DNA from: Streptomyces phaeolivaceus
Lineage (GTDB): Bacteria; Actinomycetota; Actinomycetes; Streptomycetales; Streptomycetaceae
Assembly: GCF_009184865.1 (NCBI RefSeq)
Contig: NZ_CP045096.1
Span: 5,208,001-5,272,000 of the forward strand
DNA length: 64,000 nt
Direction of reading: 5' to 3'
Made by a program: the position numbers and the translations under genes. Positions within the stretch are counted from its first letter, which is position 1, and each line of letters starts with the position of its first letter. Below are positions 2,466 to 27,403 of this stretch, one piece after another. A model generated the notes under the pieces. The model searched no databases. It saw only the letters and a list, made by a program, of their open reading frames with translations, and had not been told where the DNA came from.

Positions 2466-5117
2466 TCAGCTCGGTAGCCGTCCGTCCGAGCCGTCCGGCG
2501 GTGTGGTCTCGTGCAGTTCGAACCAGATGCTCTTGCCGTCGCCCCGGGGGTCCACGCCCCAGGCGTCCGCGAGCATGTCCATGAGCACGAGGCCGCGGCC
2601 GGAGGAGGCGAGTTCGCCGGGGTGGCGTTTGTGGGGCAGGGCGTCGCTCGCGTCGGTGACCTCGACACGCATCCGGCGCCTTCCGCTCTCACCGGTCATC
2701 TCGGCGACGAGGAGCGCGTCGGCGTCGGTGTGGACGAGGACGTTGGTGAGCGTCTCGGAGACGAGGAGGACGGCGGAGTCGACCTGGTCGTCGCAGTTCC
2801 AGTCGTGGAGGAGTTCGCGTACCTGCTGGCGGGCGCCGGCGATGCGTTCGGGCTCCGCCTGGGCGATGGTCAGGGCGGTACGGCGTACGGGCGGGCGTAC
2901 GGCCGAGGCGTCGTCGCGGTCGCATCCCTCGCTCTCCCGGCACAGCAGCAGCATCGCTATGTCGTCCTCGCGCCGGTCGGCGAGGGGGCCGGGCGTGTGG
3001 TGGGACGAGGGGCCGTGCACCCCCTGGACGAGCGCGTCGGCCAACGCCTCCAGCCGACCCGGCGCGAGACCGACGGGTTCCGGACGGGCCGGGGGGAGGG
3101 CGGCCGGCGCGAGCGGGGTCTGCCGGGGGGCCTTCGGCGCGCCGTCACCAGGTGCCGGTTGGCCCGGTTGGCCCGGTGCGAGGTCGCCGGGTTCCGGACG
3201 TCTCGGCGTGAGGTCGCCGGGTTCCGAGCCGTTGGGTGTGACGGCCCCACGCTGCGCGGCACCTGCCGCGAGTGTCGGTGTCTCCAGGCGACTCGTGTCC
3301 ATGTCGACGAGCGGGCCCACGCTGTTCGCCCCGCCGCCGCCGCCGCCGCCGCCACCACCGGCACCGGCACCGCCACCGGCAGCGAGCCTGTCGGCCTCCA
3401 CCCCGTCGGCGCCCGACCCCTCTCCGCCCAGTCCTTCTCCGCCCAGCCCCTCTCCCTCCAGGCCCTCAACAAGCGACCGCCCCTCCCCCGCCGCAGCCCC
3501 GGCCTCGGCCCCGTCGCCCGTTCCCGTGCCCGTCGGCGTCGCCGCCGTCCCCTGTGGGCTCGGGTCGAAGGACTCCAGGATCGTGCGGATGCGGCGCCAG
3601 CCGGTGTCGAGGTCGTGGCCGCCGGTTTCGATGAGGCCGTCGGTGCAGAGGAGCATGGTCTCGCCGGGTTCGAGGACCAGACGGGTGGTGGGGTAGTCGG
3701 CGTCGGGGTCGATGCCCAGGGGGAGGCCGCCCGGGGTCGGGCGGACGAGGACCGTGCCGTCGGCCATGCGGATCACCGGGTCGGGATGCCCGGCGCGGGC
3801 GATGTCGAGCACGCCGGACACCGGGTCGACCTCGACATAGAGGCAGGTCGCGAAGCGCAGGTCGGCCAAGGCGTCCGCGGAGGAGTTCGTGATCCCGTGC
3901 AGGAAGCGGGAGGCACGGGAGAGCACCGCGTCCGGGGGATGTCCCTCGGAGGCGTAGGCGCGCAGGGCTATCCGGAGCTGGCCCATCAGGCCGGCGGCGC
4001 GTACGTCGTGCCCCTGGACGTCGCCGATGACCAGGGCGAAGCGCCCGCTGGGCAGGGCGATCATGTCGTACCAGTCGCCGCCGACCTGGAGTCCGCCCCC
4101 GGTGGGGACGTACCGCGCGGCGACGCTCATCCCGGGTATCTCCGGGCCCAGCGTGGGCAGCATCGTGCGCTGGAGGCCGTCCGTCAGCTCGCGTTCGGTC
4201 TCGGCGGCGCCCGCCCGGGAGAGGGCCTGGGCGAGCATGCGGGCGACGGTGGTCAGGACCGAGCGCTCGTCGGGGGTGAAGGTGACGGGATGGGTGAAGC
4301 CCGCCATCCACGCGCCCATCGTGCGGCCGGCGACGGTCAGCGGCAGGAACGCCCAGGACTGGCGGTTGAACTGTTCCGCGAGCGGCCAGGCCGTGGGGTA
4401 GCGCGCCTTGTAGCCCTCGGGGGAGGAGAGATAGACGGCCCGGCCGGTGCGGACCACCTCGGCGGCCGGGTAGTCCGTCTCCAGCGGCATATGGGTGAAG
4501 GGGCCCTCGGCGCCCTGGTTGTGCCCGTGGTGTCCGATGACGGTGAGGCGGTCGGCCTCCACCCCGAAGACCGCGAGTCCGTCCGGTGAGAAGCCGGGCA
4601 TCGCCAGGCCCGCCGCGACCCGCAGCACCTCCGCCGTGGACCGTGCCTCGGCCAGCGCCCGGCCCGCGTCCAGCAGGAACGCCTCGCGCGAGCGCCGCCA
4701 GTCGCCGGTGACGGACGGGGCGCGGGCGGCGGTCGCCGGTGAGGGCTCGGCGACCTCCTGGATGGTGCCGATCAGCTCGAAGGACTTGTGCACCGGGTCG
4801 AAGGTCGGCTTGGAACGGCTACGGACCGTGCGGAGCACCCGGCCCCGGTCGTCCATGACCCGGATCCGTACCTCGGCCAGGGTGTCCTCGGCGACGGCGA
4901 GCTGCACGACCGAGACGATCTCGTTCCAGTCGACGGGGTGCAGCCGGGCCCGTGCCCCGGCCTGGGTGAGCGTCGTCGGTTCCGTGGGCAGACCCAGGAG
5001 CCGGGCGGCCTCGGCGTCCAGGGTGACGGTTCCGGCAGCGCTGTCCCAGGTCCACAGTCCCGTCGCTAGGGCGGACAGGACGTCCCCCACAGTGGGCGGG
5101 GGCTCACCAGTGCGCAT
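2466..5117 (-). CDS. PAS-GAF-PP2C(SpoIIE)-HATPase regulatory phosphatase
   Basis: An 883-residue cytoplasmic multidomain protein. In order: a PAS domain (about 10-125), a GAF domain (about 150-300), a SpoIIE-type PP2C phosphatase domain (about 310-515, with VGGDWYDMI and VIGDVQGHD metal-binding blocks and CTDGLIE near the end), a long low-complexity Gly/Pro linker (about 515-720, including an uninterrupted run of glycines), and a C-terminal GHKL anti-sigma-type ATPase domain (about 745-875, with LVSETLTNVLVH and SSGRGLVLMDML). Proteins like this control anti-anti-sigma factors by combining a kinase and a phosphatase in one chain. No membrane segment is visible. The linker is unusually long and is encoded by imperfect tandem repeats. 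Confidence 0.9.
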   Translation of the reverse strand: MRTGEPPPTVGDVLSALATGLWTWDSAAGTVTLDAEAARLLGLPTEPTTLTQAGARARLHPVDWNEIVSVVQLAVAEDTLAEVRIRVMDDRGRVLRTVRSRSKPTFDPVHKSFELIGTIQEVAEPSPATAARAPSVTGDWRRSREAFLLDAGRALAEARSTAEVLRVAAGLAMPGFSPDGLAVFGVEADRLTVIGHHGHNQGAEGPFTHMPLETDYPAAEVVRTGRAVYLSSPEGYKARYPTAWPLAEQFNRQSWAFLPLTVAGRTMGAWMAGFTHPVTFTPDERSVLTTVARMLAQALSRAGAAETERELTDGLQRTMLPTLGPEIPGMSVAARYVPTGGGLQVGGDWYDMIALPSGRFALVIGDVQGHDVRAAGLMGQLRIALRAYASEGHPPDAVLSRASRFLHGITNSSADALADLRFATCLYVEVDPVSGVLDIARAGHPDPVIRMADGTVLVRPTPGGLPLGIDPDADYPTTRLVLEPGETMLLCTDGLIETGGHDLDTGWRRIRTILESFDPSPQGTAATPTGTGTGDGAEAGAAAGEGRSLVEGLEGEGLGGEGLGGEGSGADGVEADRLAAGGGAGAGGGGGGGGGGANSVGPLVDMDTSRLETPTLAAGAAQRGAVTPNGSEPGDLTPRRPEPGDLAPGQPGQPAPGDGAPKAPRQTPLAPAALPPARPEPVGLAPGRLEALADALVQGVHGPSSHHTPGPLADRREDDIAMLLLCRESEGCDRDDASAVRPPVRRTALTIAQAEPERIAGARQQVRELLHDWNCDDQVDSAVLLVSETLTNVLVHTDADALLVAEMTGESGRRRMRVEVTDASDALPHKRHPGELASSGRGLVLMDMLADAWGVDPRGDGKSIWFELHETTPPDGSDGRLPS

Positions 5118-22432: not shown

Positions 22433-22461
22433 CAACCCGTCAACCCGTCAACCCGTCATCG
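22433..22461. repeat. GTCAACCC tandem repeat
   Basis: About four units of GTCAACCC(C) lie between the Usp stop and the end of the convergent PH-domain gene, running into its stop region. Confidence 0.7.
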
Positions 22462-22821
22462 GGCCACGAACTGCGTGAGGATCGCCTGCACCTCGTAGAT
22501 GTCCACACCCTTGGTGAACGTCTTCTGGATCGGTTCGTGCGTGCCCGACAGCCAGATCTTCAGCTCGGCGTCGAGGTCGAAGTGACCGGCCGTCTCCACC
22601 GAGAAGTGCGTGATGCTCCGGTACGGGACCGAGTGGTACTCCACCTTCTTCCCGGTCAGCCCCTGCTTGTCGACCAGGATCAGCCGCCGGTCGGTGAACA
22701 GGATCGTGTCCCGGATCAACAGGAACGAGGCCTGAACCTGCTCCCCGTGCCCCAGAAGCCGTCCGTAGTCCTGCTGCGCCTTGCCGGGACTGACGGTGTG
22801 CGCGTTTCCGAACAGTGCCAT
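22456..22821 (-). CDS. Bacterial PH-domain protein (bPH/YvbH-like)
   Basis: A 121-residue single-domain protein. The sequence fits the bacterial PH domain family (DUF1696): an opening helix, then beta strands with EQVQASFLLIRDTILFTDRRLILVDKQG, YHSVPYRSITHFSVETAGHFDLDAELKIWLSG and a C-terminal helix (VDIYEVQAILTQFV). The length is typical. The function of these small proteins is not established; some are envelope-stress related. Confidence 0.88.
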   Translation of the reverse strand: MALFGNAHTVSPGKAQQDYGRLLGHGEQVQASFLLIRDTILFTDRRLILVDKQGLTGKKVEYHSVPYRSITHFSVETAGHFDLDAELKIWLSGTHEPIQKTFTKGVDIYEVQAILTQFVAR

Positions 22822-22873: not shown

Positions 22874-23290
22874 CTATTCGCTCGCGCCGTCCTCGGCCTT
22901 GCTCGCGTAGCGCGGCAGGTTCTCGGTCGAGATGGTCCAGTCCCCGATGGTGACGTCCTCGCCGTAGACGAAGTCCTTGCGGGTCGCGTAGCGGGGGCCG
23001 TCCGGGGTGGAGTGGATGTCGGTGAGGACGGCGCCGTCTCCCGCGCGGGGGTCGAAGATCGCGTAGACGGCGATGCCCATCAGCGGGTAGTCGCGCATCT
23101 TGGTGACCCGGTCGTTGTCCGGGTTGGAGCGGGAGACGACCTCGATGGCGGCCACGAGGGCGCGCGGGTCGAAGGAGCCGGGGACGTCCATGTCCGCCAT
23201 CGCGATCACCATCACATCGGGGCGGCGCATGATGCCTTCGGCCTCGTCCTCGACATCGGGCTCGCCGGTGTGGGCCACGATCTCTTCCAC
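22874..23290 (-). pseudogene. C-terminal two-thirds of a Uma2-family (PD-(D/E)XK) gene
   Basis: The frame ending at 22874 reads EGIMRRPDVMVIAMADMDV, then LVAAIEVVSRSNPDNDRVTKMRDYPLMGIAVYAIFDPR, which is the catalytic core of Uma2 (DUF820) proteins (P-D-x-V, E-V-x-S, D-x-x-x-K-x-x-x-Y). Upstream it merges at about 23284-23295 into the 3' part of metG in another frame, with no start of its own. It is a remnant produced by the deletion that truncated metG. An intact, divergent Uma2 gene is at 51790. Confidence 0.8.
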
Positions 23291-24560
23291 GGCTCCTGCT
23301 CCGTGATGTAGCCGTTGACCTGCTTGACGAAGTCGAAGACGGCGAGGATGCCGCCCTGGAAGTCCAGCTCGTCGCCGATCTTCCGGTCGGCCTCGGCGAC
23401 CGCCTTGGCCAGGCCGTCGTGCAGCGCCTTCTCGGCCTCGCCGTCGGCCGTGGCCTCCGGCAGGGTGCCCTCGAAGTACTTGCCGACCATGGCCGCGACG
23501 CGGGAGGCGAGGTTGCCGTAGTCGTTCGCCAGCTCGCTCGTGTAGCGGGCGGAGAAGTCCTCCCAGGAGAACGAGCCGTCCTGGCCGAAGGCGATCGCGC
23601 GCAGGAAGTACCAGCGGTAGGCGTCGACACCGAAGTGCGAGGTCAGGTCCTGCGGCTTGATGCCGGTCAGGTTCGACTTCGACATCTTCTCGCCGCCGAC
23701 CATCAGCCAGCCGTTCGCCGCGATCTTCCCGGGGAGGGGCAGGCCCTGCGCCATCAGCATCGCCGGCCAGATCACCGCGTGGAAGCGGAGGATGTCCTTG
23801 CCGACGAGGTGGACGTCCGCCGGGAAGGTGGCCTCGAACTTCTCCAGGTTCTCGTTGTAGCCGACCGCCGTGGCGTAGTTGAGCAGCGCGTCGACCCACA
23901 CGTAGATCACGTGCTTCTGGTCCCACGGGATCGGGATGCCCCAGTCGAAGGTCGAGCGGGAGACCGACAGGTCCTGAAGGCCCTGGCGGACGAAGTTCAC
24001 CACCTCGTTGCGCGCGGACTCGGGCTGGATGAAGCCGGGGTTCGCCTCGTAGTGGGCGAGGAGCTTGTCGCCGTACTCGCTCAGCTTGAAGAAGTAGTTC
24101 TCCTCGCTGAGGATCTCCACCGGCTTCTTGTGGATCGGGCAGAGCTTCTGACCCGCGAAGTCGCCTTCGCCGTCGAGCAGTTCGCCCGGAAGCTTGTACT
24201 CCTCGCAGCCGACGCAGTACGGGCCCTCGTAGCCGCCCTTGTAGATCTCGCCCTTGTCGTACAGGTCCTGCACGAACTCCTGGACGCGGTCGGTGTGCCG
24301 CTTCTGCGTGGTGCGGATGAAGTCGTCGTTCGCGATCTCCAGGTGCTCCCAGAGGGGCTTCCACGCCTCCTCGACGAGCTTGTCGCACCACTCCTGCGGA
24401 GTCACTCCGTTGGCGTCGGCGGTGCGCATGATCTTCTGACCGTGCTCGTCCGTGCCGGTGAGGTACCACACCTTCTCGCCGCGCTGGCGGTGCAGTAGTA
24501 AATGGGGGTGGAGACGTAGAACGCCTTGCCACCCTGCTTCTCGGTTCCAGTGGCCGCCAT
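23284..24560 (-). pseudogene. metG: Methionyl-tRNA synthetase gene with an internal deletion and a lost 3' end
   Basis: ATG 24560 opens as normal MetRS (MAATGTEKQGGKAFYVSTPIYY). At about 24491-24495 the sequence then jumps to HRQRGEKVWYLTGTDEHG in a different frame. About 20 codons are missing, including the HLGH (HIGH-type) ATP-binding motif. The rest of the catalytic domain is present in frame: zinc-knuckle cysteines (CVGCEEYK), WVDALLNYATAVGY, and the KMSKS motif (GGEKMSKSNL). The 3' end stops at NGYITEQEPWK, where it joins a Uma2 remnant, so most of the anticodon-binding domain is gone. As written it cannot make active enzyme. MetRS is essential, so another gene must exist or the sequence is wrong here. 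Confidence 0.88.
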
Positions 24561-24655: not shown

Positions 24656-27250
24656 CTACGGGCGCCAGGTGGCCAGGATGCCTTCGTAGACCTCGGCGTC
24701 GGTGAGTTCGCGGGGGGTCTCGCCGGCCAGGAAGTGGGATGTGTTGTCCGACTTCAGCTTGCGGAGGTAGTCGAAGGCCTTGTTCTCCGGGTCGCCGAAC
24801 GCGACGAACGCGAAGTGGACGGCCGGGTGGTTCTTGGCCGCGTCCGCGAGCGCCTGGTTGGCCGGGGTCTTGGCGTCCGGGGCGCCGTCGGTCTGGAAGA
24901 CGACCAGGGCGGGGGTGCCGGGGGCCGACTTCTGGTGCTGGGCGAGCACCTCCTCCACGGCCACGTGGTAGCTGGTGCGGCCCATGCGGCCGAGGCCGGC
25001 GTGCAGGTCGTCGACCTTGTTCTCGAACGCGTCGAGGGTCAGCTCGCCGGTGCCGTCCAGTTCCGTGGAGAAGAAGACGACGGGGACGGTGGGGGGCGTC
25101 TCGGGGTCCAGGTGGGCGGCGAGGGCGAGGGTCTGCTCGCCGAGGGCCTGGGCGGAGCCGTCCTTGTAGTACGCCCGCATCGACGCGGAGCGGTCCAGCA
25201 CGAGGTACACCTTGGCGCGGGCGTCGGTGAGGGTGTGCTTCGCGAGGGCGTCCTGGGCGGCGCGGTAGGCGGTGCCGAGCCCGGCCGCCTCGGCTGCGCC
25301 TTCGCCCTCACCGGTTGTCCCACTCGCACCACCCGTGCGGCTCGCGTCGTCACCTGCGGGTACGACCAGCGGGGCGCTCTCGCCGTCGGCGACCGCGGGT
25401 TCGGGGGTGGGGGATTCAGAGGGGGTGGGGGCGGTCGCGGTCGTGGCTGCGGCCACTGCCACTGCCACTGCCACGGGTTCGGGGGCGACGGTCGGCTCTG
25501 GGGCGACTTCGGGTTCGGGGCCGACTTCCGGCTCAGATGCTTCGGCCGGTTCCGGAGTGGCTGCCGCTTCGAGAACGACGGTCGCTTCCGGGGCGGCGGC
25601 AGTCACCGGCTCGGGAACGGTGGTCGGCTCAGGAGAGTCTTCGGCGGCAGCGGCGGCTTCGCGCTCGACCGTGGTCTCCGGCTCCGCCTCGGGGGCGGTC
25701 GCTACGGCTTCCGGCTCCGGCGCGGTCTCGGGCTCCGGCGTGGCGTCGTCCTCGGAGACAGCCACGGGCTCGGGGGTGGCTTCGGAGGCGGAGTCCGCTT
25801 CCGTCACTGCTTCCGCTTCGGGCGTCGTCTCAGCGATTGGCTTCGCCTCGGCTGCGGGCTCGGAAGCGGCCTCGGGGGCCTCGACGGCGGCCGACTCCTC
25901 CGTCGACTCCGTCTCCGGCTCGTCCTTCGGCTCGGCTTCGGTCACAGGCTCGGCGCCGGACGCGGCGGCGGGCTCCGGCGTCTCCACGTCGGCAGGCTCG
26001 GCCTCGGCGACCGGCTCCGGCTCGGCTTCCGCGACGACCTCAGGCTCCGCCACGACAGCCGACTCGGCCTCGGCGACCGGTGCCTCGTTCTCGGCGTCCG
26101 CCTTCGCCTCGGTCTCGGCAGCCGGGGCCGTGGCCTCGGCGTCCGCTTCCGGCTCGGCATCGGCAACCGGTGCCACCGGCTCAGCCACAGCCTCCGTTTC
26201 CGCCTCCGCCTCGCTCTTCGCGGCGGCAGCGGTAGCAGCAGCCGCAGGCTCGGCCTCGGCGTCCGCCGCGACAGACTCCGCGCCGGCTTCCGCGACGACC
26301 TCAGGCTCCGCCACCACAACCGACCCGGCTTCGGCGGCGGCCGGTGCCTCGTTCTCGGCGTCCGCCTTCGGCTCGCCCTCGCCCTCGCCCTCGGCGACCG
26401 GCGCCGCAGCCTCTCCCTCGGCCTCAGCCGACACCTTGGCCTCAGCCGACACCTCGGGTTCAGGCTCAGCCACCGGCTCAGGCTCCGCCACCGAAGCAGC
26501 CGCCTTCACCTCGGCCGGAGTCTCCACCTCGGCCGGAGTCTCCACCTCGGCCGGAGTCTCCACCTCGGCCGGAGTCTCCACCTCGGCCGGAGTCTCCACC
26601 TCGTCCGGAACCGTTGCCTCGTCCGGAACCGTTGCCTCAGGCTCGGCCGACACCACGGTCTCCGCCTCGGCGACCGGCGCGGGCGCGGCCTCCGCAGCGG
26701 GCTTGACCTCAGCCTCCGCAGCCGACTCCACCTCGACCTCAGCCGAGGCCTCCACCGAACCCGAATCCGACGTCGAAGCCTCAGCCGACCCCGAATCCGA
26801 CCCCGAATCCGACGTCGAAGCCTCAGCCGACCCCGAATCCGACCCCGAATCCGACCCCGAATCCGACCCCGAATCCGACCCCGAATCCGACGTCGAAGCC
26901 TCAGCCGACCCCGAATCCGACCCCGAATCCGACACCGAGCCTGCCCCCGACGCCTCCCCATCCCGCGGCTTCGGCACCGTCACATTGTCGAAAGCCGCCG
27001 AGACGAGTTCGTCGGCGACGGAGACGGGGGCGGGGGCGGGGGTAGTCGAGGAGGACGGCGATGTGGGGGTCGCAGGAGTGGGCGGGGTCGGATCGGTCGC
27101 CGGGGCCGGAACCCTCGGCTCGGCGGCCTCCCCCTGGGAAGCGGAGGCGTCCTCCGTCGAGGAAACCCGCTCCGCCTCCTGCGAAGGAACCGTGTCGCGC
27201 CCCTTGCGTGAGCGGCTGAACGCATTCCGCAGGAGAGAGAGAATGCCCAT
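24656..27250 (-). CDS. vWA (TerF-like) protein with a very long acidic repetitive linker
   Basis: An 864-residue protein; ATG 27250 ([17 protein letters not shown]) opens it, in the divergent region shared with the PhoX gene. Residues about 30-640 are Ala/Glu/Pro/Ser-rich low complexity: [12 protein letters not shown] repeats (DNA about 26755-26935), VETPAE hexapeptides (about 26507-26640), and many AEAE(S/P) variants. The C-terminal domain (about 650-864) is a von Willebrand A domain with an intact MIDAS ([11 protein letters not shown], then [11 protein letters not shown] and FQTDGAP) as in tellurite-resistance TerF-like proteins. The N-terminal and C-terminal parts are normal for Streptomyces homologues near metG; the linker length is extreme. 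Function is unknown; vWA domains mediate metal-dependent protein binding. Confidence 0.85.
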
Positions 27251-27403
27251 GTGCGCAACCCTTCGGGTGAGTTGAAGCCCGTCAATCCCTGGCCAGGACG
27301 GACACGTAAGGTTAGCGGCCGGGCGTGGCGATCTTGGGGTGGGGCGGGCGCCTTTCACTATCCCCGCCACCCTGACCTGTCAACACCGCCTCAACTGCCG
27401 CAG

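Follow-up and report, generated by a model that had tools for sequence, protein, structure and literature searches.

The window analysed here, a stretch of 64,000 nucleotides from Streptomyces phaeolivaceus, sits on a 10.1-Mb contig of a two-contig, 99.95% complete assembly. It holds a metG gene, encoding methionyl-tRNA synthetase (MetRS), that is interrupted at two points between its usual neighbours; the features of the locus, together with those found elsewhere in the genome and in relatives, are collected in Table 1. The metG locus has 80 named relatives, 77 of them labelled Streptomyces. The gene upstream of metG contains a long low-complexity region rich in Glu, Ala, Pro and Ser, with near-tandem repeats.

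Table 1. Features of the metG locus (window coordinates), of the second MetRS gene and its surroundings (contig and locus coordinates) and of comparison loci. G000 is the window genome.
Feature	Coordinates	Strand	Basis
metG 5' segment, 22 codons including the start codon (ATG, 24558-24560)	24495..24560	-	alignment to intact relatives L043-L046, L053
Lesion 1, junction lacking 65 nt that include the HLGH (HIGH) motif; frame lost	24493..24495	-	BLASTN segments and alignment
metG body, open frame without a start of its own; zinc-knuckle CVGC...CPIH and KMSKS intact	23284..24493	-	PF09334, 1.6e-87
Lesion 2, metG/Uma2 gene junction	23279..23288	-	alignment
Uma2-family gene, 3' part (5' part lost), fused to metG	22874..23283	-	PF05685, E 1.2e-9
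Upstream neighbour, presumably von Willebrand A-like; also adjoins metG in relatives and marks the native locus	24656..27370	-	
Downstream neighbour, presumably a PH-like small protein; likewise downstream in several relatives	22456..22821	-	
cMetRS, intact, 521 aa	G000:C2:6171143-6172708 (L009:8144-9709)		PF09334 profile search
AsnRS-like class II synthetase paralogue, 378 aa, first in cluster	G000:C2:6161490-6162626 (L200:17991-19127)		PF00152
S66 peptidase	L009:1272-2297		PF02016 and PF17676
Conjugation-type genes adjoining the cluster	G000:C2:6179393-6199957 (L009/L201)		
A-/B-type MetRS locus, examples	L043:3996-6461; L191:7684-10855; G199:C6:22789-26077; G232:C3:424872-428191		

The first-pass annotation had described metG as broken twice, with the HIGH-motif segment deleted out of frame and the 3' end lost by joining to another gene, and both lesions were found on comparison with intact relatives. 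At lesion 1, window positions 24493 and 24495 correspond to positions 4979 and 4913 of the intact relative L043, and base 24494 has no counterpart, giving a net loss of 64 nt and a frameshift; the BLASTN segments stop at these same two positions in every one of the 15 relatives listed from the 80 loci. At lesion 2, homology to metG ends at 23284 (L043 6188), again in all 15 listed relatives from the 80 loci, and as the coding part of the L043 gene runs to 6461, about 91 C-terminal codons are gone and are replaced from 23284 by the Uma2-family tail. The five nucleotides GGAAG at this junction occur both in metG and in the Uma2 genes that L085 and L103 carry, which makes the joint of a short-homology deletion a likely origin of lesion 2. 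Five of the 80 loci (L075, L080, L085, L092 and L103) have a relative of the Uma2 stretch (77-85% identity across 126-133 aa) downstream of metG on its own strand, and two more have short matches; as gene order nearby differs among relatives, this is a possible ancestral arrangement.

Between the lesions, the KMSKS motif and the zinc residues that the annotation had reported as intact are indeed both present. The remnant is 90-96% identical at the protein level to the 80 retained loci, a set biased towards intact genes because its members were selected by how well they matched the full 394 residues. Chance is excluded as an explanation for the lesions, as the breakpoints are sharp and shared and the body is conserved. 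With its reading frame disrupted and its catalytic motif lost, metG at 23284-24560 is, judged from its sequence, a recent pseudogene.

How recent was gauged from substitution patterns in 79 of the 81 B-type MetRS sequences (the window genome and 78 of the 80 loci). The mean dN/dS of the remnant against its eight nearest relatives is 0.152, compared with 0.161 among those relatives (28 pairs), and the remnant carries one private replacement at otherwise invariant sites, a number equalled or exceeded by 20 of the other 78 sequences. metG was thus under normal constraint until very recently: the remnant has no excess of replacements, and the two large deletions are already present, events too recent for relaxed selection to show in the substitutions. 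The same figures bear out the earlier reading of the damage as recent. A long neutral decay was considered and finds no support in the dN/dS values or the count of private changes. The remnant allele was not found in other deposited strains among the best 120 of 268 proteins.

Such damage had been taken to imply either a second MetRS gene or a wrong assembly, and a search of the rest of the genome had been proposed. A PF09334 profile search returned a single other MetRS, intact and about 0.94 Mb from the window metG, which we call cMetRS. The remaining PF09334 matches, in open frames of 474-1101 aa, were considered as a possible third MetRS and were read instead as putative related class I synthetases.

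cMetRS has the features of a working synthetase. HLGH and KLSKS are present in all of the six core cMetRS sequences, and the methionine-pocket residues Trp237, Ala240, Leu241, Tyr244 and Phe276 (S. aureus numbering) are likewise kept in all six, with Ile273 replaced by Val; across the methionine pocket cMetRS keeps the Trp, Ala, Leu, Tyr, Phe and His. It carries an anticodon-binding domain (PF19303, E 3e-8), exceeds the TIGR00398 metG cut-off (451 versus 336 bits) and aligns over residues 5-517 with solved MetRS structures (E 1.7e-128), of which 4dlp, 2x1l and 6ax8 are nearest. Its top NCBIfam model is PRK12267 at 544 bits, under the cut-off of 598, and PRK00133 gives 334.5 bits against a cut-off of 587. 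On our assumption of which NCBIfam models and PDB entries stand for type 1 or type 2 MetRS, neither the models nor the solved relatives place cMetRS in the type 2 sequence class, that of the inhibitor-insensitive MetRS2 of some Gram-positive pathogens.

The window metG DNA matches the cMetRS gene in just two short patches of 68-75% identity, so the latter is not a recent duplicate of metG, and its GC3 (0.837, versus 0.977 for the metG remnant) fits a foreign origin. Between the window genome and a second Streptomyces genome, G085, cMetRS is 86% identical, with a dN of 0.077 against a dS of 0.39, which indicates purifying selection; two Actinomadura species carry versions 79-80% identical, and Actinomadura viridis and A. 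keratinilytica are among the named genomes with a close cMetRS. As the sole intact MetRS in two genomes, cMetRS presumably charges tRNA-Met in vivo.

The auxiliary pocket of type 1 MetRS is lined in S. aureus by the strand from Asp51 to Ile57, as outlined in PMC9071491. This strand reads D-E-N-S-L-K-N in cMetRS versus D-E-H-G-Q-K-I in the B-type housekeeping MetRS, and positions 272-273 read G-V versus D-I. The changes (H53N, G54S, Q55L, I57N, D/E272G and I273V in S. aureus numbering) occur in all six close cMetRS sequences. Among relatives of 60-65% identity (n = 57), Asn53, Leu55, Asn57, Gly272 and Val273 are present in all 57 and Ser54 in 52, and every one of the 13 relatives of 50-54% identity has all six altered residues. 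Of 80 B-type sequences, numbered through an alignment of the B-type to S. aureus, 78 have the standard pocket residues (L131, which gave no protein, was left out of this alignment). G54S and I57N, which we took to be laboratory resistance changes to REP8839, found no support in that role in the literature searched. Taken at face value, the pocket substitutions suggest that cMetRS would be resistant to a MetRS inhibitor.

The cMetRS gene lies in a biosynthetic cluster of about 20 kb (6161490 to about 6182236) that is collinear with a cluster in G085, most genes having 69-89% protein identity; in the stretches compared, similarity between the two genomes is nearly absent outside it. The exception is an aminotransferase fusion, of which G085 has just a 45% relative, elsewhere in the order. 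A distant version of the cluster occurs in G023. By Pfam or PDB matches, its members include several methyltransferases, an S66 peptidase, a PhyH oxygenase, an FkbM-type protein, a radical SAM/SPASM protein, a PIG-L deacetylase, a DXD glycosyltransferase, the class III aminotransferase fusion, two APH-type kinases and a DUF4915 protein; the AsnRS-like paralogue that stands first may be an amide-forming biosynthetic enzyme. Cluster genes have a GC3 of 0.78-0.86, compared with 0.87-0.97 for 9 of 12 upstream genes, all as predicted by a gene caller that discarded open frames of GC3 below 0.78, such that the cluster range describes the retained genes. Conjugation-type genes (T4SS-DNA_transf, TraG-D_C (TraG/TraD coupling ATPase), AAA_10, TcpC and an M23/NlpC hydrolase) adjoin the cluster, which makes its transfer plausible and suggests, from the gene content, an integrative conjugative element next to it. 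No tRNA genes as integration sites were found in five loci.

A comparison of 100 of 120 listed MetRS with 54 of 94 aminotransferases gave 21 pairs in which a homologue of cMetRS and one of the aminotransferase fusion come from contigs of identical size. One pair was dropped, as 3546 nt could not hold the two genes; of the 20 usable pairs, 11 have contigs under 50 kb. The sources are Streptomyces, Kitasatospora, Streptacidiphilus, Nocardia, Plantactinospora and Actinomadura. On the strength of this pairing, the cluster is a conserved actinobacterial unit and not a chance neighbourhood.

The S66 peptidase of the cluster resembles MccF, the S66-type self-immunity hydrolase of microcin C7: MccF is its closest match in the PDB, residues 13-337 align with MccF structures (E 3.9e-57), and the Ser, Glu and His positions, which we take to be the MccF catalytic triad, align together with the WSDE..W loop. 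It is thus a putative MccF-type immunity hydrolase. Microcin C targets AspRS, whereas the gene neighbouring the MccF homologue here points to MetRS.

Genome G085, which carries the same cluster, has also lost its housekeeping MetRS. The gene there is of the A-type, about 26% identical to the B-type. One deletion, of about 97 nt, has taken its start and the HLGN motif, a second has taken about 255-262 nt, and it also carries a 1-nt frameshift and a nonsense codon. The cluster-borne enzyme is the only other MetRS in that genome at E <= 1e-12. The remnant, analysed in two parts, gives a dN/dS near 0.19 when compared with an intact gene; this second loss must therefore also be recent, and with other lesions in another MetRS type it appears to have been independent.

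The wider distribution was surveyed with a B-type query on 392 genomes of the genus and an A-type query on 300, whose listed members (G000-G312) all fall within the 392; a match at E = 0 served as a proxy for a near-full-length gene, and match coordinates came from the best 150 or so. Of the 300 genomes, 160 have the A-type only, 111 the B-type only (obtained by subtraction, the 93 genomes without an A-type match being unlisted and taken as the same set), 25 both and four neither: G000, G085, G017 and G155. The last two are assemblies of about 1140 and 1010 contigs with weak MetRS matches only, and gaps are the likely reason. Fourteen of the 300 genomes carry an accessory MetRS, and its presence is associated with a missing housekeeping match (Fisher's exact p = 0.012).

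Among 52 accessory carriers (18 + 34) searched with PF09334, the housekeeping gene is missing or broken in three (G000, G085 and G346) and near full length in 48, and in G720 the housekeeping match begins at profile position 28; from one listing of 21 carriers besides G000, four were examined, and G408 (41%) was omitted as housekeeping-like. G346, a 90-contig assembly, has an accessory MetRS of 64% identity and no other MetRS at E <= 1e-12. G023, with an accessory MetRS of 62% and the related cluster, and G457, also 62%, both keep an intact housekeeping MetRS, and possession of the accessory enzyme or the cluster does not, therefore, force the loss. The accessory family extends beyond the cluster. 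The accessory MetRS of G345, G190, G300 and G133 (L202, L203, L204 and L205) are 73-80% identical to one another and about 53% to cMetRS, with no neighbour in common; in G345 and G346 (L195) a related MFS transporter (46%) lies close to the accessory gene. The accessory MetRS of these five genomes are possibly acquired resistance genes.

The first-pass annotation had not foreseen that the second MetRS gene would belong to a biosynthetic cluster and encode an enzyme of the resistance type. We consider it probable that metG is dead, that the acquired, cluster-borne cMetRS took over its function, and that cMetRS began as the enzyme that protects the producer of a MetRS inhibitor made by this cluster. 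Replacement of the housekeeping MetRS by cMetRS is the well-supported part of this reading. The available data support the entry of a mobile cluster carrying its own resistant-type MetRS into the chromosome as the first step. cMetRS, if expressed well enough, would then have charged all host tRNA-Met, and the sensitive metG would have become dispensable, or even harmful if the product was loaded by it; its destruction by two deletions is seen directly, and its cause would lie in this change of circumstances. That acquisition preceded the loss of metG is the order we infer. The product itself would inhibit MetRS, plausibly as an aminoacyl-nucleotide mimic, perhaps a methionyl or methionyl-like one, because the cluster encodes an MccF-type immunity hydrolase. 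We give roughly even chances to a broader proposal, in which actinobacteria make a new natural class of MetRS inhibitor (a methionyl-nucleotide or Trojan-horse compound cleaved by the MccF homologue) and producers swap their MetRS, repeatedly and independently, until the native gene is deleted.

It is also conceivable that the accessory MetRS is an ordinary xenologue that made metG redundant, its location in the cluster being incidental and no toxic product being involved. The 53%-identical accessory enzymes without common neighbours would fit this, as would G346, which seems to live on an accessory MetRS that lies among transporter and regulator genes, outside any such cluster. However, incidental location sits poorly with the 20 cases of pairing with the aminotransferase fusion and with an MccF homologue in the same cluster, and nearly the same altered auxiliary-pocket residues recur throughout the accessory family; we regard plain redundancy as unlikely. 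Rather improbable, in our judgement, is a dominant poisoning, in which the product is a methionine mimic loaded onto tRNA by the housekeeping MetRS, so that removal of that enzyme was needed and a bypass was not enough. Both genomes examined with a close cluster did lose the housekeeping gene, by different lesions, and both remnants still have a normal dN/dS, as poisoning would have it, but G023 keeps an intact housekeeping MetRS with its related cluster, and immunity of the MccF type favours an adenylate mimic over a substrate analogue.

The essential nature of MetRS is what speaks for an error of assembly or consensus, with metG intact in the cell. Against this, the two deletions are long and sharp, one with a joint of 5 nt common to both genes' relatives, which is atypical of consensus noise; a second copy of the region is absent from the nearly complete genome, which does have an intact alternative MetRS; and G085, with the same cluster, has its housekeeping MetRS broken by different lesions. 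We therefore hold such an error to be very improbable. That the broken metG makes a useful non-canonical protein of 419 aa by re-initiation at GTG 24471 is scarcely credible, since the remaining open frame, with its conserved codon usage and lack of excess substitutions, is accounted for by recency alone, whereas the HIGH motif is absent, the anticodon domain is cut and the tail runs out of frame into the Uma2 gene.

The preferred reading, replacement of metG by a self-resistance copy, has partial precedents. TrpRS and SerRS are known self-immunity cases in antibiotic producers. IleRS2 of mupirocin-producing strains is described with other self-immunity synthetase genes of producers in PMC7916415. 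Like IleRS2, cMetRS is a second, divergent synthetase with inhibitor-site changes and biosynthetic linkage; unlike in those cases, the putative target is MetRS, and the housekeeping gene has been destroyed in two strains and not kept beside the resistant copy. In platensimycin and platencin producers, PtmP3 and PtnP3 replace FabF and FabH as targets (PMC6332302), and cMetRS would similarly be a cluster-borne insensitive enzyme that takes over an essential reaction. That account names a resistant housekeeping FabF and apparently mentions no pseudogene, whereas here the housekeeping gene is a pseudogene in two strains. Another MetRS relative from a Streptomyces cluster, Spb40, is presented in PMC11429834 as a cupin-MetRS fusion for hydrazine biosynthesis; unlike this biosynthetic fusion, cMetRS spans the full length of a MetRS and includes the anticodon-binding domain. 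A KEGG analysis lists metG among the synthetase genes lost in one Streptomyces clade (PMC12889140), apparently without offering replacement from a cluster as the explanation.

No natural MetRS inhibitor, or MetRS-targeting cluster with a cluster-borne MetRS, was recognised in the literature searched, and a search combining self-resistance, pseudogene and synthetase returned no paper. Resistant synthetase copies and target replacement in producers are already known. If the reading is true, it would mean that in nature, and more than once, a resistance gene has irreversibly supplanted the essential synthetase that was the target. Death of the housekeeping gene is strong genomic evidence that its cluster-borne counterpart functions in vivo, a sign that ordinary resistance-guided mining is without. 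The product of this conserved cluster, not recognised in the literature searched, should hit MetRS, one target of current antibacterial programmes, and the accessory family provides natural enzymes already changed at the auxiliary pocket of synthetic MetRS inhibitors.

Finally, one and the same locus, marked by a shared upstream gene, holds an A-type (about 575 aa) housekeeping MetRS in some species and a B-type (about 540 aa) in others. Where both types occur together (25 of 300 genomes), some are arranged in tandem, for example in G199 and G232, as if an ancestral A/B pair had been lost differentially.
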